Below are positions 23,895-37,208 of a stretch of 37,386 nt of DNA, piece by piece. Numbering within the stretch: position 1 is the first letter of the stretch; each line of letters starts with the position of its first letter. The position numbers and the translations under genes were made by a program. Origin of the DNA: an uncultured Oscillospiraceae bacterium (lineage in GTDB: Bacteria > Bacillota > Clostridia > Oscillospirales > Oscillospiraceae); contig CANRFT010000019.1 in the NCBI GenBank assembly GCA_947629955.1, positions 1 to 37,386 on the forward strand, in the 5' to 3' direction. Under the pieces are notes generated by a model, which did no database searches, was not told the DNA's origin, and was given only the letters and a program-made list of their open reading frames with translations.

Positions 23895-24593
23895 ATGGGA
23901 TTCTGGGACAGGCGCATCGATAAGCGCATCGCCGCCTACCAGCGGGAGCTCATCGAGACCCACTACGCCGAGGTGGAGAATATGTACCGGCAGATCCGGG
24001 GCTGGCGGCATGACTACCGCAATCACATCCAGGCCATGAAGGTCTATGCGGCAAACGGCGATCTGGAGGCCATCCGCCGCTATCTGGACGAGCTGGATAC
24101 CGATCTGAACACGGTGGACACCGCCGTCAAGACAGGCAACCCCATGACCGACGCCATCCTCAACAGCAAGATCTCCCTGGCCAGGTCCAAGGGCATCCAG
24201 GTCCGGGCCGACGCCCACATCCCGGTGAAGCTGCGCCTCTCCGAGCTGGACCTGTGCTGCGTGATCGGCAACCTGTTCGACAACGCCATCGAGGCCAGCC
24301 TGGCCCTGCCGGAGGAGCAGCGGCTCATCCGGGTGTACATGGACATAAAGGGCGCCCAGCTCTACCTCTCCTTCACCAATTTCACCGCCGGGAAGAAGCT
24401 GCCCAAACGCGCCGGCCGCTTCGCCTCCACCAAGGGAGACGGCCACGGCCTGGGGCTGGTCCGGGTGGACACCATCGTGGAGCGGCTGGGAGGTTACCTC
24501 TCCCGCAACAGCGAGGACGGGGCCTTCACCACCGAGATCCTGCTCCCCATCGGCAATTCGTCCCCCACAGAGAACGATTCGTCCCCGGAATGA
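23895..24593 (+). CDS. GHKL sensor kinase without a membrane domain
   Basis: This 232-residue protein contains the AgrC-type dimerisation motif WRHDYRNHIQ (phosphoacceptor likely His39), an N box (NLFDNAIEAS) and a G box (GDGHGLGLVRVD). Typical AgrC-like kinases have six or more membrane segments before this part. Here the ATG is only about 30 codons before the His box, and no hydrophobic segment exists. The short gap to the upstream gene leaves no room for a lost N-terminus. It may sense an internal signal or borrow a membrane sensor, perhaps the ABC transporter downstream. The last codons overlap a terminator stem. Confidence 0.9.
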   Translation: MGFWDRRIDKRIAAYQRELIETHYAEVENMYRQIRGWRHDYRNHIQAMKVYAANGDLEAIRRYLDELDTDLNTVDTAVKTGNPMTDAILNSKISLARSKGIQVRADAHIPVKLRLSELDLCCVIGNLFDNAIEASLALPEEQRLIRVYMDIKGAQLYLSFTNFTAGKKLPKRAGRFASTKGDGHGLGLVRVDTIVERLGGYLSRNSEDGAFTTEILLPIGNSSPTENDSSPE

Positions 24594-28416: not shown

Positions 28417-29409
28417 TCAATAGAAGTACTTGGCGGAGTAGTTCTTGCCGTCGCCGATATACTTCATGATGCTGGCGCTCTGCTTGCCGGAGGAGGCGAA
28501 GGTGGGATCCATCCGCTGCCAGGAGGAGCCGTCGAAGTAGACGGCGCCCTCGATCCAGCCGTCGCTCTCGGACCAGACGCTGATCCAGGCGTGATAGGCC
28601 GTGCCGGCGTAGCCAACCACCAGCTTGCAGGGGACGCCCTGGCTGCGGAGCATACCGGTCATCAGGGCGGCATAGTCGAAGCAGATGCCTTTCTTCCGGG
28701 CGAGCACGTCGTCCAGGACGGGCAGATAACCACTCTTCACGGTGGCCGCCTGCTTCTTGTCATAGGTCAGGGTCTTGACCACGAAGTCGTAGACCGCCTG
28801 CACCTTGTCCAGCTCGGTCTTCTTGCCGGCGCACAGTTCGGCCGCCTTGGCGATGGCCTTGGGCGCGGCCTCGAAGTCCACATACTGGTTGGAGTGGAGG
28901 AAGGGGCCAAATTCGTCCTTCAGGGTCACCTTGATCTGCTGGGACACGACTCCGGAGTAAGACGTGCCTTTCACGTTCTCGTAGACGCCTACCTGATAAG
29001 TGCCGTTGCCGTCGGAGAGGGGAAGCGCCGTCCACTGGCCCGCGTTCAGGTTGTACTGATACTGGGTGGTGGGGCCCTTGACCAGAGCTTTCAGCCGCTT
29101 GTCAGTCTTCCCGGTGAACTTGACCATCACATAGCCGTCGGCGATGTTGGAGTAGTCGATCACGGCCTTGTTGTTTTTCTTCTCCTTGGTCGCGGGGTGG
29201 GAGACGGACATGTAGCTGGAGATGGCAGGAGTATCTGCCAGAGCCACAGCCTCTGGGGTCAGATCGACGACCTCGGTCATGGCCACCTCGTCAGTGAAGG
29301 CTTCCTCCATGGCCTCAGCGGGATCCTCGGCGGGAGCGGCGGTGCTGCAGCCGGCCAAAAGAAGCAGGGCCAGGCACAGCAAAAGGGCCCGTTTCATTGT
29401 GTTACGCAT
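28417..29409 (-). CDS. Transglutaminase-like lipoprotein
   Basis: This 330-residue protein has a lipoprotein signal (lipobox LLAGC, Cys21), an acidic linker, a beta-rich middle region (about 60-175) and a transglutaminase-core domain. The catalytic triad is visible: Cys243 (KGICFDYAALM), His273 (YHAWISVW) and Asp301 (MDPTF). Bacterial members may be proteases, cross-linkers or amide hydrolases at the cell surface. The ATG at 29409 has AAAGGAG 9 bases upstream. It lies 125 bp downstream of a LytTR gene on the same strand, and a 13-base inverted repeat could hide its ribosome binding site. Confidence 0.92.
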   Translation of the reverse strand: MRNTMKRALLLCLALLLLAGCSTAAPAEDPAEAMEEAFTDEVAMTEVVDLTPEAVALADTPAISSYMSVSHPATKEKKNNKAVIDYSNIADGYVMVKFTGKTDKRLKALVKGPTTQYQYNLNAGQWTALPLSDGNGTYQVGVYENVKGTSYSGVVSQQIKVTLKDEFGPFLHSNQYVDFEAAPKAIAKAAELCAGKKTELDKVQAVYDFVVKTLTYDKKQAATVKSGYLPVLDDVLARKKGICFDYAALMTGMLRSQGVPCKLVVGYAGTAYHAWISVWSESDGWIEGAVYFDGSSWQRMDPTFASSGKQSASIMKYIGDGKNYSAKYFY

Positions 29410-29415
29410 AGCAAA

Positions 29416-29491
29416 CGCTCCTTTCTGCGTTCATGAGTCTGACACGGCGGGCGGGTTCCCACCGTCATCCACAGTATAGCAGAAAGGAGCG
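29416..29491 (-). promoter_or_regulatory. Inverted repeat that can mask the ribosome binding site
   Basis: On the minus strand CGCTCCTTTCTGC (29491-29479) is the exact reverse complement of GCAGAAAGGAGCG (29428-29416), which contains the transglutaminase gene's ribosome binding site. The distal arm overlaps the local promoter, so only transcripts started farther upstream contain both arms. Confidence 0.65.
29473..29481 (-). promoter_or_regulatory. Extended -10 promoter of the transglutaminase gene
   Basis: TGCTATACT on the minus strand, about 64 bp before the start codon; no good -35 box at 17 bp. Confidence 0.6.
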
Positions 29492-29534
29492 AGGAAAACG
29501 AGAGATTCTGAAAATGACAGGTTTTCCGTTGAAA

Positions 29535-30275
29535 TCATCCATCCTCGGCGGGAGAGACGGCCTTCTGAGCGGCCCCTTTGCTGGCTGAATAGGCAAAATA
29601 CGCCTCCCGGATGGTCTTCAGGTTCCGCTGGCGGATGAGCACCATCTCGCCGGTGTCCAGAGTGAAGGACTTGCCCGCCTCCCGGACGTGGTCCATGTTC
29701 ACAAGATAGCTCTGGTGGCAGCGGAGGAAACGCGGGTCGTTCAGCTCCGACTCGATCTCGTCCAGACGCTTGTATACGGTGTAGTCCACGCCGTCGCGGC
29801 AGTGGAGGATGCACTTGGTGTTGCTGCTCTCCACATACAGGATCCCGTTCAGCGGCACGCGGACCACATAGGACCGCTGCCGGAAGGCATAGGTGTGATC
29901 GTCGTAATTGCGCAGCACCCGCTCCACCGCCCGGCGGAGCTTCTCCGGGCTGATGGGCTTGAGGATGTACCCGGCGGCGGTGACGTCGTAACTGTCGATG
30001 GCGAAGTCCGGAGAGGCGGTGAGGAAGACGATCTCCCCGGTGTAGCCAAACTCCCGGAGACGGTGGGCGATGTCGATGCCGAGATGATCCGTCATGTAGA
30101 TGTCCAGGAAAACGATGTCGAACCAGTCGCCCTCCTGGATGTCACAGGCCAGAGTGACCCCGCTCTCGTAGAGGACGAGCTCCGGCTTGACAGTGCTCTC
30201 ATCAAAGCATGCGTTCAGCATTTCACGTATGATCTCGCGGTCGATCTCATTGTCGTCGCAAATCGCTACCCGCAT
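29535..30275 (-). CDS. LytTR-family response regulator, orphan
   Basis: This 246-residue protein has a receiver domain (Asp7-Asp8, phosphoacceptor Asp58 in VFLDIYMTDHLG, Lys in LKPIS) and a LytTR DNA-binding domain (RFLRCHQSYLVNMDHV). A short tail rich in Ala, Lys and Ser follows. I chose the ATG at 30275 because GGAGGGG lies 6 bases upstream and the receiver fold begins there; the open frame beyond it is GC-rich noise. No kinase gene is adjacent. It is divergent from the giant surface-protein gene across an intergenic region that holds a LytTR-like double site. Confidence 0.95.
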   Translation of the reverse strand: MRVAICDDNEIDREIIREMLNACFDESTVKPELVLYESGVTLACDIQEGDWFDIVFLDIYMTDHLGIDIAHRLREFGYTGEIVFLTASPDFAIDSYDVTAAGYILKPISPEKLRRAVERVLRNYDDHTYAFRQRSYVVRVPLNGILYVESSNTKCILHCRDGVDYTVYKRLDEIESELNDPRFLRCHQSYLVNMDHVREAGKSFTLDTGEMVLIRQRNLKTIREAYFAYSASKGAAQKAVSPAEDG

Positions 30276-30311: not shown

Positions 30312-30340
30312 ATTATAGCACGGGCCGCGCGGATTTTCAA
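30312..30340 (-). promoter_or_regulatory. Promoter of the orphan LytTR regulator
   Basis: Minus-strand TTGAAA (30335-30340) and TATAAT (30312-30317) with a 17-bp spacer, 36 bp before the ATG. Confidence 0.88.
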
Positions 30341-30536: not shown

Positions 30537-30565
30537 TTGACATTCACCTCAAACGATATTACTAT
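30537..30565 (+). promoter_or_regulatory. Possible distal promoter of the surface-protein gene
   Basis: TTGACA (30537-30542) and TACTAT (30560-30565) with a 17-bp spacer, about 210 bp before the start codon. It would produce a long leader covering the direct repeats at 30616-30645. Confidence 0.45.
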
Positions 30566-30615
30566 TGACAGTGATGAAGTGGCCGCTCACCGCGGCGCGG
30601 GGGTCTTCATTGCCG

Positions 30616-30645
30616 ATTTCAATGGAAAAACCGTCAATTTCAATG
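30616..30645 (+). promoter_or_regulatory. Paired 9-bp direct repeats, candidate LytTR operator
   Basis: ATTTCAATG occurs at 30616-30624 and again at 30637-30645. The 12-bp gap gives exactly 21-bp periodicity, two helical turns, as in AgrA and related LytTR sites. The second copy ends 27 bp before the TATAAT at 30673, where an activator would contact polymerase. Confidence 0.6.
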
Positions 30646-30669
30646 TTTGCTGTTTTTTTTAAAATCCGG

Positions 30670-30678
30670 TGCTATAAT
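30670..30678 (+). promoter_or_regulatory. Extended -10 promoter of the surface-protein gene
   Basis: TGCTATAAT, a consensus extended -10 element. The -35 position has no recognisable hexamer but contains a T tract (30653-30660). The start codon is 98 bp downstream. Confidence 0.75.
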
Positions 30679-30776: not shown

Positions 30777-33700
30777 ATGAAAATCAGAAGGACACTGAAG
30801 AAGGTGCTGAGCTTCATCCTCGTGCTCTCCATGGTCATGAGTCTCGTCAACATCACCGTGTTCGCGGTGGATGCCCCCGAGACCGATGTGCCTGAAGAGG
30901 CCCTCCTGACCTGCGGTTTGGAGGAGCATACCCACACCGATGAGTGCTACGCACATGACCTTACGGCCGCTCCTATCTGCGGACAGGAGGAGTCCGAGGG
31001 CCACCAGCACACCGACGCGTGCTACGGCGAGCCCGTCAAGACCCTCGTCTGCGAGCTGGAGGAGTCCGAGGGCCACGTTCACACCGAGGAGTGCGAGCCT
31101 GAGACCGTGAAGACTCTCGTCTGCGGCAAGGCGGAGTCCGAGGGCCACGCTCACACCGAGGAGTGCTTCGAGACCAAGCAGGTCCTCACCTGCGAGATCC
31201 CCGAGAACCACACCCACACCATCGACTGCTACTTGACCGACGAGAACTTCGGCGAAGTGATGGAGTTCGACGGTCAGTATTACAATGTGGTGAGGCTCAC
31301 CTGCGAGATCCCCGAGGGCCACACCCACACCGACGCCTGCTACACCGAGGTGACCGAGCAGGTCTGCGGCCAGGAGGAGTCCGAGGCCCACACCCATACC
31401 GACGAGTGCTACGTCGAGGAGACCGTCTACCACTGCGGCAAAGAGGCGGCCGAGGGCCACACCCACACCGACGAGTGCTACAAGGACATCGCTCCCCTGG
31501 TCTGCGAGCTGGAGGAGTCCGAGGGCCACACCCACACCGACGCCTGCTATCCTCTGACCGACGAGCTGGTCTGCGGCAAGGAGGAGCACACCCACACTGA
31601 GGAGTGCTACGAGCTGCCGATGGGCGCTGCTATTGGCGGCGGCACGTTGACGGTTGATATAAGCGGATTTCCTGAGGGCTCTACAGTTACTGTGATGGAT
31701 ACTGACCATACGATTACGGTAAACGGGGATTGGCGTGGTCAACTTGTTTTCAATCACACAGGAACTGCAAGAATCATTGGTAGCGGAAAAATAATTGCCG
31801 ACAAGAAGGGCAGCGCCATTGTTGTCAAGAGCGGCACGGTTATCCTGGAAACCGGTGTGACCGTCACCGGCGGCATCGGCACCGAAGTGTCTGGTACTGG
31901 GCTGGAAGTGTATAGTACTGATTACCAGGGCCTCGGACGCAATGGCGGCAAGTTCAGAGCCGGCGGCGGCGTTTATGTTGCGGGCGGGACGTTCCAGTTA
32001 GCGGGCGGTACAGTTACTGGGAACACCGCACAGCGCGGCGGCGGTATCTTTGTCAACAAGGGCGCTTCCTTCACTATGACCGGCGGAACCGTCAGCAACA
32101 ATGAGACTGTTGGGATTAGCGAATGGAACAGTGGGAACTATAATCTCGCAGGCGAAGGCGGCGGTATTTACGTCTGGGGCAAGGCCACGATCTCCGGCGG
32201 TTCTATCACCGGCAACACCTGCAACTCTGAGACTGATTTGGGCGGCGGCGGTATTTATATCAATAACGGCGGTATCGCTACGCTGATCAATGCCAAGATC
32301 ACCGGCAACACGGCTTATGGTTTCGGCGGCGGCATCGCGGGCTGCTGCCACGGCGAGATGTCTCTGGTGGCTATTGACGGCGTTGCGATGTATGACAACA
32401 CCGCAAAGGGGACGAATCATACACTACCCAAGTATTGGCCCAATATTAGTGACTATATGAAGGGCAAAAGGGATAATACTGCTGAGACGACTGACCACTG
32501 GAACGCTGCGCATGATCAGGGATTCACGGCCAGTCATACCAAGGACTTCTATACCGCGGGCGCCACAATCGTCAGCAACTATATGGCTGGCGGCGGCTCC
32601 GCAAGGTATAGTGCGAAAGTTGGTAGTGCGAAAGTCGTAGAAATCAAGGACGAGCAAGTTCTGAAGTATGTCGATAATGTCGGCCTTGTTGCGAATCCCA
32701 CGCAGGATTCGAAGAATATGTTCCCCGGCGGCGTTGTGATTTCCGGTAATACTTCTAAAGTTCACGGCGGCGGCATCGGCTGCAACGGCGGTCTTTACTT
32801 CGGTTCTCATAAGGATAACGAGATCGAACTTGATACCATCGACCTGACCCTGAATGCCTCTAAGTCGATTACCGGGCGTGAAATTAAAGAGAATGAGTTC
32901 TTGTTTGGGCTCTATTTAGAGGATGGCACCACCAAGGTTGCTGAGGCGCGTAACGATAAGAACGGTAACATCACATTCAAGATTAACAATTCCACTGATA
33001 ATATTGGTAAGGACTGGGTTACGTCTAAGAAAGTTACCTTCATTATGAAGGAACTGTCTGGTAATAGTAGCGACACCAAGGCTGATCCGAGCCAGTACAA
33101 GTTTGAGGTGACGCTCAGTAAGGAGCTTTATAAGACAGAAACGGTCGTACTTGATCACACGACTGACGGCAATGAGGCGTTCAATACCATCAAAGTCACG
33201 TATTCGAGCTATATATTCAAGAAGCTCAGCGAGACCATCACAAAAATCGTGGATGCAAATGGTAACAGCGTAAGCGAGAACGTTACTGGTGGAGTCAAGT
33301 TTGTCAACGAGCATAAGACCAGCAGCTTGAGCATCACTAAAGAGGTCACCGGCAACATCGACCCCGACATCTACAGCAACCACGAATTTAAGTTCACCGT
33401 CACTGGACCGACCAACTATCCGGGGCTTATCGCACCGAAGACTTACTACCCGGTTACTGTTAAGGGCGGCGCCACTGTGACTCTGACCGATCTGCCTGTC
33501 GGTACCTACACCGTTACCGAGGACACGGACACCGCCAAGATCACTGGCTTCAACTGGACCGGGACTAAGACGTCCGGCTCTGTCACCGTTTCGACCAACG
33601 GGACCGCTACTTTCACTGCGACCAACAACTACACTATTAAGTACGTTGACCTGGCTGTTGTGAAGCAGTGGCCTGCCGACAAGACGGGCGACATCCTCCC

Positions 33701-36700
33701 CGCAAGCGTGACCGTTGCGGTCCAGCGCTCCACGGACGGAACGAATTACGAGACTATCGCCACTGCCGACCTGACCGCCGCCAATGGCTGGAGTGCGGAA
33801 TGGGATCACTCGGTTACAAGCTGGACCGCCGCCGATCTCACGACTGGAAAACTGTATACCTACCGGATCGTTGAGACTGGCGTCACCTATAACGAGAACA
33901 GCTACTACAACAGCGAGAGAGTCGGCACCAGCAATCTCTACAAGGTCTGGACTGACGATGCCAAGTACAATGTGGAAAGTAACACCTATGAGCTGTTCGG
34001 CGGCTGGCAGTCCAGCGAGACCACCACTACCACCGACGGCAGCACCGTCCAGGTGTACGCCACCATCAGCAACACCTGGATTCCTGCCGAGGATATCGGC
34101 ACCGCTTCTTTCACCATCCACAAAGTGGCCGAGGTCAATGACGCCCGGCTCGACTACAATGAAGTGAACCTGGCCGGCGCCGAGTTTACCCTTTACAAGG
34201 GTACGGATACTACCGAAGTTGTCAATACAACTATCACTGACGAGTATGGTAATGGCGGTTTTGCCGGTCTGAAGAAGGGCACCTACACCCTCAAGGAGAC
34301 CAAGGCTCCCGTCGGTTACGACCTGGATAAGACCGTGTGGACTATCGTAGTCAGCGAGGATGAGTTCCAAAAGAGCACAGTCACCGCGAGAGAGAACGGC
34401 TATGATCTCCAGAACGAGTGGACCTGGAAGGCCCAGACCGGTGATAACATCGGCACCCTGAAGGTCGTCAACACCATCAAGCGCTACAACATCACCCTGA
34501 GCAAAGAGGTCCTGTTCGACACCAGGGGCGACGAGTTCATGAACAACTGCAAACTGGTCGAGGATCTGACCTTCACGTTCCATGTTCATGACGAGGCCAT
34601 CAACGGCCAGGTCATCGATACCACCGTGACCCTCAAGGCGGACAAATGGACCGAGACCCTGAGCAATCTGCCCTACGGCACGATCACCATTTCCGAGATC
34701 AATATCCCCGAGGTTCCCTACTTCGATTTCGGCTCCGTCAAGATGGAGAGCGCTGTCGGCACCTGGGCGAACGGAACTCTCACCATCACCGGCGAACAGC
34801 TTGATGCTGCGGCCGATCGCGCTGTGACCGTCACCGCAAAGAACTACTACGAGATCCACCGCGTGAGCCTGGAGCTTGACAAGATCGTCACCCTGGACGG
34901 CAAGGCTCCCACCGAGCGCAACAATTACGTGGTTAATGGTCAGACGTTCGAGTTCAACGTGCGCGGCGTTCCCGCTGACGGCTCCCCGATTTTCGACGAG
35001 CAGGTCACGCTGACCGTGGACGCGACCGGCAACGCGGAGGCTAAAACCCTTACGGACCTGCCTGTTGGCCTCTATATCATCACCGAGACCAAGAACGACA
35101 GCTTGTCGGATTACAACTTCAAGGGCGTGACCTTTGCGGTCACCAAGGGTGGTGATGTTGTCCCGGCCAACGCCACCGGCACCCAGGTTAGCTTCGACCT
35201 GACCGAGGAGACCGACGGCGCGACGATCAGCGTTGCCGCCACCAACGACTACACCGTGAAGACCGGCGACATCGTCATCCACAAGGACGCCAGCATGGAC
35301 GGCACCCTCTACGGTGAGGAAGGCGAGCACATCGTCGAGAAGTTCCACTTCTTCCTGGACGGCACCGACCTCAACGGCAAGGAAGTTCACAAGGACCTTT
35401 GGGTCAAGTACAGCGACGAGGCCACGTTCAAGGACATCCCCTATGGTGACTACGTCATCACCGAGGACATGGAGGCTGCCGGCGTTGAGCACTATGACTT
35501 CGGCGGCGTTAGGTTCCACAATGCGGCCGACGGTAGCAATACCAGCAACGACAAGTACTTTGACCAGAACGAGGTCGGCAAAGAGGACTGGGGCTTCAAT
35601 GTCAAGTTGGATGACGCCCACGACAGCGCGAGTGTTGAACTCAAGCTGGATGTCACCAACGAGTACACCCGCAAGCTGGACAAAATGACCGTTACCAAGA
35701 TCATCTCCGGCAACAACATGGACTACAGCTCCAAGTACGACTTCACCGTGGCGTTCAAGTCCCCCGCCGACTATGTGAAGCTGGCTGGCAGCTACAACTA
35801 CACCGTCGTGGACGCCCAGGGCAACGAGGTTGAGGGCAAGGGCGGCACCATCTCCCCCGTGTTCGTTCCCGACACTGACACGTTCGAGACCGACGACGGC
35901 AACCAGCACTTCGAGTCTGCTGCCGGCCACACCCAGACCGTTGAGGTCAACGGCGAGGTCTACACCGTGTACGGGACCATCGAGGGCCTGGGCAACGGCG
36001 AGAAGGCGGTCGTGACCGGCCTGCCCGTTGGTGTGAAGTGGCACGTGACCGAGGTCAAGGAGAACGAGGGCTACTACACCAGCTACGAGAACCAGAACGG
36101 CACCGTGGCTGAGAACGCCGCGAACGCCGCTACCGTCAACAACAGCAACACCATCAACACCACTGTCAACGTCCAGAAGGTCTGGGTGGGTGACGATGAG
36201 AACCGCCGTCCCACCAGCATCACCGTGCAGCTCTACAAAGACGGCAACCCTGTTGAGGGCGAGACCAAGGTCCTGGATGCGTCCAACAACTGGAGCGCCA
36301 GCTGGACCGGCTTGACCTACGGCTCCACCTACGACGTGGTCGAGGTCGGTAACTATCCCGGCTACACCGCCAGCAGGACCGGTTCCGGCCGGGGCACCAC
36401 GGTGAACATCACCATCACCAACACCTTCGACGAGGAAAGCCTCGACCATGATTTGAGCGTGAGCAAGGTTTGGGAGGGCGGCGATCCGCTGACCCGGCCC
36501 ACCGAGATCCAGGTGCAGCTGTACCGCGGCGAAGAGACCATCGGCGGCCCCGTGACCCTGAGCGCGTCCCAGGGCTGGACCTACACTTGGACCGGCCTGA
36601 AGGGCGATCCCGAAGAGTACACTATCGAAGAGCTCAGCGAGTTCGAGGACTATGAGCCCATGGTCACTAACGACGGTTGGACCTTCACCGTCTACAACAC

Positions 36701-37208
36701 CTACACCGGCAACCCGCTGACGCCCATGCTGAACGTGCAGAAGATTTGGGTCGGTGACGACGAGTTCGTACGTCCCACTGAGATCCAGGTGCAGGTCCTG
36801 AGAGACGGCGAAGTGGACGAGGTCGTGACTCTGAACGCTGAGAACGGCTGGAGCTGGAGCCGTCAGCTGACCCTGGACGAGTTGGATTCCACCTTCGAGG
36901 TGAAGGAGCTCAACGTACCGGCGGACTACACGGTATCCATTGAGGAAGGCAACAACGGCCTGAGCTTCACGATCTACAACACCTACGACATTCCTGACTT
37001 CGACATTCCGGACGACGATGTGCCGCTGGATGACTTCCCGGACATTGACATCCCGGACGACGATGTGCCTCTGGACGACGCGCCCCAGACCGGGGACCAG
37101 AGCCACCTGGCGCTTTGGATCGGTTTGGCTGTGTGCTCCGCGTTCGGTATGGCCCTCTGCAGCACGGACCTGTTCGCGGCTGACAGCAAGAAGAACCGGA
37201 AGAAGTAA
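30777..37208 (+). CDS. Giant sortase-anchored surface protein with Cys/His repeats, beta-helix and pilin/Cna-B-type stalk
   Basis: This 2143-residue protein begins with a signal peptide (residues 1-30, ending VFA). Residues 46-278 hold ten Cys/His repeats with HxHTxxC. About 287-680 form glycine-rich repeats of a parallel beta-helix (TGNTAQRGGGIF). About 684-847 match the pilin isopeptide-linkage (FctA/Spy0128-like) type. About 849-1796 are several beta-sandwich modules, including a SpaA-like domain near 1110-1205 (LAGAEFTLYKG). Three Cna-B domains follow (about 1796-1884, 1892-1976, 1982-2071). Next comes an acidic spacer with two IPDDDVPLDD copies, the sorting motif APQTGD (2102-2107), a membrane segment and the tail KKNRKK. 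Start is the ATG at 30777 behind GGGAGA. No sortase is in the window. Adhesion is inferred. Confidence 0.95.
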   Translation: MKIRRTLKKVLSFILVLSMVMSLVNITVFAVDAPETDVPEEALLTCGLEEHTHTDECYAHDLTAAPICGQEESEGHQHTDACYGEPVKTLVCELEESEGHVHTEECEPETVKTLVCGKAESEGHAHTEECFETKQVLTCEIPENHTHTIDCYLTDENFGEVMEFDGQYYNVVRLTCEIPEGHTHTDACYTEVTEQVCGQEESEAHTHTDECYVEETVYHCGKEAAEGHTHTDECYKDIAPLVCELEESEGHTHTDACYPLTDELVCGKEEHTHTEECYELPMGAAIGGGTLTVDISGFPEGSTVTVMDTDHTITVNGDWRGQLVFNHTGTARIIGSGKIIADKKGSAIVVKSGTVILETGVTVTGGIGTEVSGTGLEVYSTDYQGLGRNGGKFRAGGGVYVAGGTFQLAGGTVTGNTAQRGGGIFVNKGASFTMTGGTVSNNETVGISEWNSGNYNLAGEGGGIYVWGKATISGGSITGNTCNSETDLGGGGIYINNGGIATLINAKITGNTAYGFGGGIAGCCHGEMSLVAIDGVAMYDNTAKGTNHTLPKYWPNISDYMKGKRDNTAETTDHWNAAHDQGFTASHTKDFYTAGATIVSNYMAGGGSARYSAKVGSAKVVEIKDEQVLKYVDNVGLVANPTQDSKNMFPGGVVISGNTSKVHGGGIGCNGGLYFGSHKDNEIELDTIDLTLNASKSITGREIKENEFLFGLYLEDGTTKVAEARNDKNGNITFKINNSTDNIGKDWVTSKKVTFIMKELSGNSSDTKADPSQYKFEVTLSKELYKTETVVLDHTTDGNEAFNTIKVTYSSYIFKKLSETITKIVDANGNSVSENVTGGVKFVNEHKTSSLSITKEVTGNIDPDIYSNHEFKFTVTGPTNYPGLIAPKTYYPVTVKGGATVTLTDLPVGTYTVTEDTDTAKITGFNWTGTKTSGSVTVSTNGTATFTATNNYTIKYVDLAVVKQWPADKTGDILPASVTVAVQRSTDGTNYETIATADLTAANGWSAEWDHSVTSWTAADLTTGKLYTYRIVETGVTYNENSYYNSERVGTSNLYKVWTDDAKYNVESNTYELFGGWQSSETTTTTDGSTVQVYATISNTWIPAEDIGTASFTIHKVAEVNDARLDYNEVNLAGAEFTLYKGTDTTEVVNTTITDEYGNGGFAGLKKGTYTLKETKAPVGYDLDKTVWTIVVSEDEFQKSTVTARENGYDLQNEWTWKAQTGDNIGTLKVVNTIKRYNITLSKEVLFDTRGDEFMNNCKLVEDLTFTFHVHDEAINGQVIDTTVTLKADKWTETLSNLPYGTITISEINIPEVPYFDFGSVKMESAVGTWANGTLTITGEQLDAAADRAVTVTAKNYYEIHRVSLELDKIVTLDGKAPTERNNYVVNGQTFEFNVRGVPADGSPIFDEQVTLTVDATGNAEAKTLTDLPVGLYIITETKNDSLSDYNFKGVTFAVTKGGDVVPANATGTQVSFDLTEETDGATISVAATNDYTVKTGDIVIHKDASMDGTLYGEEGEHIVEKFHFFLDGTDLNGKEVHKDLWVKYSDEATFKDIPYGDYVITEDMEAAGVEHYDFGGVRFHNAADGSNTSNDKYFDQNEVGKEDWGFNVKLDDAHDSASVELKLDVTNEYTRKLDKMTVTKIISGNNMDYSSKYDFTVAFKSPADYVKLAGSYNYTVVDAQGNEVEGKGGTISPVFVPDTDTFETDDGNQHFESAAGHTQTVEVNGEVYTVYGTIEGLGNGEKAVVTGLPVGVKWHVTEVKENEGYYTSYENQNGTVAENAANAATVNNSNTINTTVNVQKVWVGDDENRRPTSITVQLYKDGNPVEGETKVLDASNNWSASWTGLTYGSTYDVVEVGNYPGYTASRTGSGRGTTVNITITNTFDEESLDHDLSVSKVWEGGDPLTRPTEIQVQLYRGEETIGGPVTLSASQGWTYTWTGLKGDPEEYTIEELSEFEDYEPMVTNDGWTFTVYNTYTGNPLTPMLNVQKIWVGDDEFVRPTEIQVQVLRDGEVDEVVTLNAENGWSWSRQLTLDELDSTFEVKELNVPADYTVSIEEGNNGLSFTIYNTYDIPDFDIPDDDVPLDDFPDIDIPDDDVPLDDAPQTGDQSHLALWIGLAVCSAFGMALCSTDLFAADSKKNRKK
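30912..31610 (+). repeat. Ten coding repeats of the C-x(4-8)-HxHTxxC motif
   Basis: Each unit has a Cys, a Glu-rich spacer, then HxHTxxC, usually followed by Tyr. Cysteine pairs are at residues 46/57, 68/82, 92/106, 116/130, 139/151, 176/188, 197/211, 220/234, 243/257 and 266/277. The in-unit distance is 11, 12 or 14 residues. Several units share near-identical DNA (such as GAGGAGTCCGAGGGCCAC), so copy number may change by recombination or slippage. The fifth unit is followed by a longer insert of about 20 residues. Confidence 0.92.

Follow-up and report, generated by a model that had tools for sequence, protein, structure and literature searches.

Phased direct repeats before a giant adhesin gene: the probable operator of an orphan LytTR regulator with a predicted surface-protein regulon

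The paired repeats in front of the giant adhesin gene of the window (the whole stretch of 37,386 bases that was analyzed) are very probably the operator of the neighboring LytTR response regulator, which would activate both the adhesin gene and the gene for a transglutaminase-like lipoprotein. This reading comes from the comparison of sequences; from it we infer binding, phosphorylation, and activation rather than repression. A small surface-protein regulon under this LytTR regulator is predicted, one switch tying the 2143-aa adhesin and the transglutaminase-like lipoprotein to SLH and CAP proteins. The analysis yields an operator word, a promoter geometry, and a list of targets for a LytTR regulator of little-studied bacteria, checked on sites that were not used for training. 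As the predicted targets hang on one control switch, the way in which these bacteria control their surface can be put to a direct test. The features concerned are as follows.

28417..29409, minus strand: transglutaminase-like lipoprotein, 330 aa, behind the regulator gene; lipobox recognized by eye
29473..29481, minus strand: extended −10 of the transglutaminase gene, TGCTATACT; its TATACT starts 36 nt downstream of the box 2 start
29506..29535, minus strand: second predicted LytTR site, ATTTCAACG-N12-TTTTCAGAA, before the transglutaminase gene
29535..30275, minus strand: LytTR response regulator, 246 aa, receiver plus LytTR domain; no adjacent kinase
30312..30340, minus strand: putative promoter of the LytTR gene, TTGAAA-17-TATAAT, from a promoter scan
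30616..30624, plus strand: box 1 of the adhesin site, ATTTCAATG; the extended half-site starts with TGCCG at 30611
30637..30645, plus strand: box 2 of the adhesin site, ATTTCAATG; CGTCA (30632–30636) directly 5′
30670..30678, plus strand: extended −10 of the adhesin gene, TGCTATAAT; its TATAAT starts 36 nt downstream of the box 2 start
30777..37208, plus strand: giant surface adhesin, 2143 aa, ATG at 30777; Cna_B, SpaA, DUF5979, and DUF7601 domains

As the first-pass annotation had claimed, two exact copies of ATTTCAATG lie 21 bp apart from start to start (30616–30624 and 30637–30645). They are the sole copies on either strand of the window (0.11 expected), and two copies turned up in 1 of 100 shuffles of it. 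When the 501-nt intergenic region was subjected to dinucleotide shuffling, an exact 9-mer pair at period 21 arose in 9 of 3000 cases and a pair at any period between 12 and 59 in 326 of 3000; the 9-mer pair alone is thus no more than moderately unusual. The repeat had first been listed as a 9-mer, which turned out to be the core of a longer half-site of ∼14 bp, near TGYCRAATTCATCG, as read from the site alignment and the period analysis. The layout of the adhesin site is 9-12-9, which falls within the LytTR form of 9- to 11-nt repeats 11–13 nt apart. The repeat period corresponds to about two helix turns, and half-sites 21 bp apart would both lie on one face of the helix.

The adjoining regulator consists of a receiver (PF00072) and a LytTR domain (PF04397), both above cut-off, and Asp58 of the receiver was invariant in 14/14 aligned sequences (the alignment leaves out L101, with a stop within the stretch, and L100 of genome G302). 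Its gene is divergent from that of the adhesin and an orphan, again as first annotated, no GHKL kinase being adjacent to 29535–30275 on the minus strand. Five of the seven LytTR genes in the window's genome adjoin a GHKL kinase gene (PF14501, the family by which kinase neighbors were judged genome-wide), and this one does not; its neighbors are the adhesin and transglutaminase genes, in place of the adjacent kinase of the Agr/Com type. The nearest GHKL kinase (23895–24593) adjoins the other LytTR gene of the window, and in the segment 23187–28340 this second LytTR gene, the GHKL kinase, and two ABC transporter genes stand in a row. The matrix scan of the window found no LytTR site preceding the regulator gene's own putative promoter. 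By eye, the adhesin has H/C-rich N-terminal repeats and a sortase-like APQTG end. The His/Cys-rich repeats (HTHTDECY type; 30900–31650 of the window) are also seen in the adhesins of G460 and L041.

The second site in the window has the same design as the adhesin site and was absent from the earlier entry on these repeats; it overlaps the regulator stop codon by one base, the last of the codon being the first of the site. Among 30 transglutaminase loci examined, two have a site, both with the LytTR regulator adjoining. The other 28 had none; the upstream DNA is cut off in two of them (L064 and L065), two gave partial, promoter-only matches (L068 and L069; 18.1 and 13.8 bits), and four (L054, L055, L056, and L061) come from genomes with a regulator ortholog elsewhere. 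A c-di-GMP-I riboswitch (L106:7744–7827; C14 of the window's genome, G000) precedes a second, 72–74% identical transglutaminase-like gene of the same genome, at which no LytTR site was found.

With an E value of at most 1e-45 as the threshold, orthologs of the regulator were present in 15 of 400 family genomes, the window's genome included. In the genus of G370, 4 of 64 genomes have one, G533 having come from that search, and the 25 genomes searched in the genus of G460 gave no new ortholog (1/25, which is G460 itself). L041, a publicly available genome deposited under the name uncultured Oscillospiraceae and the nearest public relative, has a further ortholog. The first-pass annotation had named conservation among related loci as a check, and it came out positively: the repeats and their 21-bp phase are kept beside regulator orthologs in nine other genomes. 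In L041, the order transglutaminase–regulator–adhesin is retained, and each of the two flanking genes is preceded by phased boxes. In G370 and G460, it is the transglutaminase gene that the site precedes; upstream of the regulator, G460 has a sortase gene that is preceded by the end of an adhesin. G170, G252, G172, and G163 have the site facing a small divergent gene, assigned to DUF6514 by Pfam in three; the product in G172 has no Pfam match and resembles the other three by eye. In G080 and G435, the site faces a gene for a Spo0A_C protein. Over these nine genomes, the site thus stays beside the regulator while the partner changes. TTC is invariant in both boxes of all 12 aligned sites, and at period 21 the mean half-site identity over 18 sites is 0.56, whereas none of the other shifts between 10 and 40 exceeds 0.34.

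The main negative is G030, from the same genus and with a regulator 65% identical, in which no site was recognizable at the regulator or the transglutaminase gene (best match, 15.9 bits); it was dropped as a supporting ortholog. When the ortholog-bearing genomes were searched with R1, the model that includes the −10, no strong site was found in G011, G302, and G222; in G222, the contig ends just before the regulator gene. The ortholog of G302 (L100) has two in-frame stops, and its divergent region holds what by eye is a degraded box pair. Repeats beside the regulator gene of G533 were not counted, being 22 bp apart and lacking a fitting −10 by eye; the counted site of this genome is on a different contig from the regulator. 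Also not counted were the boxes of G011 (L051:8587–8637), three at 21-bp steps with no fitting −10. They lie upstream of the regulator ortholog and on the same strand as that gene, and autoregulation of the G011 protein through them is possible.

A matrix built from 10 sites of other genomes ranked the two window sites first and second over both strands (29535, 30.0 bits; 30616, 27.4 bits), the next place in the window scoring 13.0. Against a background of window composition, the two sites scored 34.8 and 31.6 bits and the next place 17.1, and at most 19.9 bits was reached in 53 other loci (195 kb), which were taken around other LytTR relatives and transglutaminase genes, a few of them from ortholog-bearing genomes. 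With leave-one-out matrices, most of the remaining sites scored well above the rest of their own locus; weak were the adhesin site of L041 (12.7 versus 10.1 bits, with a tie at 17.7 on the second background) and the site of G435 (14.5 versus 13.2 bits). The 12 training sites were picked near LytTR genes, 11 of them by demanding a −10, so that their nearness and spacing are partly selection.

Over the 15 ortholog-bearing genomes, R1 found four strong sites outside the training set, all on other contigs and scoring 35.4–41.0 bits. They precede the gene for an SLH/MucBP protein of ∼1770 aa, the start of which is some 550 nt away (G460 C29, 41.0 bits), that for a SpaA-type adhesin with an unclear start (G460 C147, 39.8 bits), that for a 1497-aa Cna_B adhesin (G460 C26, 36.6 bits), and that for a transglutaminase-like lipoprotein (G533 C93, 35.4 bits). 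The N-terminal repeats of the 1497-aa adhesin resemble those of the window adhesin (43% identity over 302 aligned columns). A site before another SLH protein (G370 C6, 23.8 bits) is no better than the best matches in control genomes. Two c-di-GMP-I riboswitches (L137:7150–7236 and, on the minus strand, L141:12115–12198) lie between the LytTR site and the SLH/MucBP genes of G460 and G370. On the tentative reading of the surface regulon that is given below, a riboswitch added at some relatives' targets would let a single surface gene receive two signals.

Across the 400 family genomes, taken to be the same as those of the ortholog survey, R1 at a threshold of at least 30 bits was positive in 9 of the 15 genomes with an ortholog, all nine of which had supplied training sites, and in 0 of the 385 without (best score, 24.5 bits). 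R2, a box-only model holding no site of the window's genome, was positive at E 0.05 in 12/15 ortholog-bearing genomes versus 0/25 controls; ten of the 12 had contributed training sites, and the match in another, G222, is weak (C138, judged from its letters alone). At E 0.005 over the 400 genomes, it found 8/15 with an ortholog and 10/385 without, where ∼2 were expected. The two of these ten that were inspected, G439 and G233, have a true 21-bp repeat, which indicates that the word is not confined to this regulator; the repeat precedes a gene not resembling a surface protein. In both (L178 and L179), it is a near-perfect 21-bp tandem repeat holding AATTCAATGA, just 3′ of a promoter. The R2 matches G170:C47 and G546:C22 look like chance and were discarded. 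G349 and G176 (40–41% identity) were left out of the R1 and R2 searches of the ortholog-bearing genomes. Taken together, the conserved phase and the sites before exported proteins outside the training set support the initial suggestion of a LytTR-type operator.

The adhesin promoter is indeed an extended −10 without a −35 box, as originally described: TG is at 30670–30671 and TATAAT at 30673–30678, and at the −35 place no hexamer agrees with TTGACA in more than 2/6 positions. In 17 of 18 promoters, a set that leaves out inverted sites, the −10 begins 36–38 nt after the start of box 2, so that the site lies just upstream of the target promoter, as expected of a LytTR operator; because 11/12 training sites were selected partly for a −10, which R1 also includes, the tightness of this spacing is overstated. 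Sixteen of these 17 have the TG, and their −35 place matches at most 4/6. The eighteenth, the CAP promoter, has a perfect −35 and its −10 at 48 nt. On the plus strand, the sole candidate reported by a simple promoter scan was TTGACA-17-TACTAT (30537–30565), upstream of the repeats. It scores 10/12 and, as the similar repeat of G439 and G233 is situated just downstream of a good promoter, the site might belong to this LytTR protein and yet repress, or act mainly on the upstream promoter by blocking polymerase. We consider this improbable, since a −10 at 36–38 nt combined with a poor −35, kept in 17/18 promoters, is the usual look of activator-dependent promoters.

Less probable still is that the boxes are bound by another co-inherited regulator, be it a different LytTR protein or the small Spo0A_C/DUF6514 partners. 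The window's genome does encode six further LytTR proteins, G030, G080, and G011 each have 7–18 matches to this regulator (of which some may involve just the receiver), and a like repeat occurs in the two ortholog-less genomes. However, no site lies near any of the other six LytTR loci in the window's genome, the site persists while its partner genes differ from genome to genome, and control genomes with numerous LytTR relatives lack a site. A chance origin of the two 9-mers, for which the frequency of exact repeats at periods 12–59 in shuffled DNA might speak, is practically ruled out by conservation, that is, by the cross-genome matrix, the non-training sites, and period 21 alone standing out.

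With the repeats thus read as the operator of the neighboring regulator, its further targets in the window's genome can be predicted. At E 0.05, R2 found four places there, 4/4 before proteins that were judged by eye, from their signal peptides, to be exported: the two window sites and the genes for a CAP-domain lipoprotein (C13) and an SLH lipoprotein (C8), both of which probably belong to the regulon. A three-mismatch match on C29 of the same genome is absent from the R2 matches. Before the SLH gene, the boxes have the inverted orientation with respect to it, as they have before its relative on C18 of G460 (39% identity between the two lipoproteins; the latter is without a Pfam match), and in both the −10, with hexamers picked by eye, is at 38 nt. 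A CAP-like protein of the L041 genome is 38% identical to that of the window's genome; its site (16.2 bits) has inverted boxes whereas the other is direct, and both have the −35 at 25 nt and the −10 at 48 nt. From these few cases, we entertain, loosely and tentatively, the idea that a single orphan LytTR protein governs a regulon of the cell surface via an operator working in both orientations. If the sites do act both ways, such behavior would be out of the ordinary, as the operator of this regulator has polarity.

Mechanistically, the LytTR response regulator would be phosphorylated by a kinase encoded elsewhere, and two molecules of it would then occupy the two half-sites of the adjoining operator on one face of the helix. 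So bound, the regulator would recruit RNA polymerase to the extended −10 promoter that lacks a −35. This would turn on expression of the giant adhesin and, by way of the second site, of the transglutaminase-like lipoprotein.

The regulators AgrA, ComE, and VirR bind paired direct repeats on one helix face, and their genes sit with a kinase gene. The present regulator gene differs from this type by having no adjacent GHKL kinase and, to our knowledge, the AgrA, ComE, and VirR words do not fit these boxes, as first annotated for AgrA and VirR. A limited literature search yielded no report of the operator word in connection with LytTR, or of this type of surface-gene regulator. A study on HdrR/BrsR and other LytTR regulatory systems (LRS) describes 9-bp repeats that are mostly 12 bp apart and lie 5′ of the promoter, in some cases together with an extended −10, and, for HdrR with its extended −10, experimentally demonstrated binding (PMC6193735). 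The words there are mostly of the ACCNCTTA kind, and the regulator is paired with a membrane inhibitor and acts on its own operon (PMC6193735). In contrast, the regulator described here contains a receiver domain, and its own gene was not found to be preceded by a site. An HdrRM-type LRS was ruled out, as the next gene encodes the transglutaminase-like lipoprotein and has its own site, and the scan of the window gave no site before the regulator gene. In PMC4847170, the common form of LytTR sites is given as paired repeats of 9–11 nt with 11–13 nt between them and no shared word. Two direct repeats of GGCATTTCAT are listed there for YpdB of E. coli at yhjX, with a period of 21 as counted on the oligonucleotide (PMC4847170). 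Among the words found in these sources, that of YpdB is nearest to the present half-site, with the core ATTTCA in common and different flanks, and the proteins were likened by domain type. In the YpdA/YpdB system, the kinase partner is reported to respond to pyruvate, and yhjX is induced. An argument of the same kind as ours has been made for YpdB and BtsR, the motifs of which are reported to be kept across species (PMC5552118).
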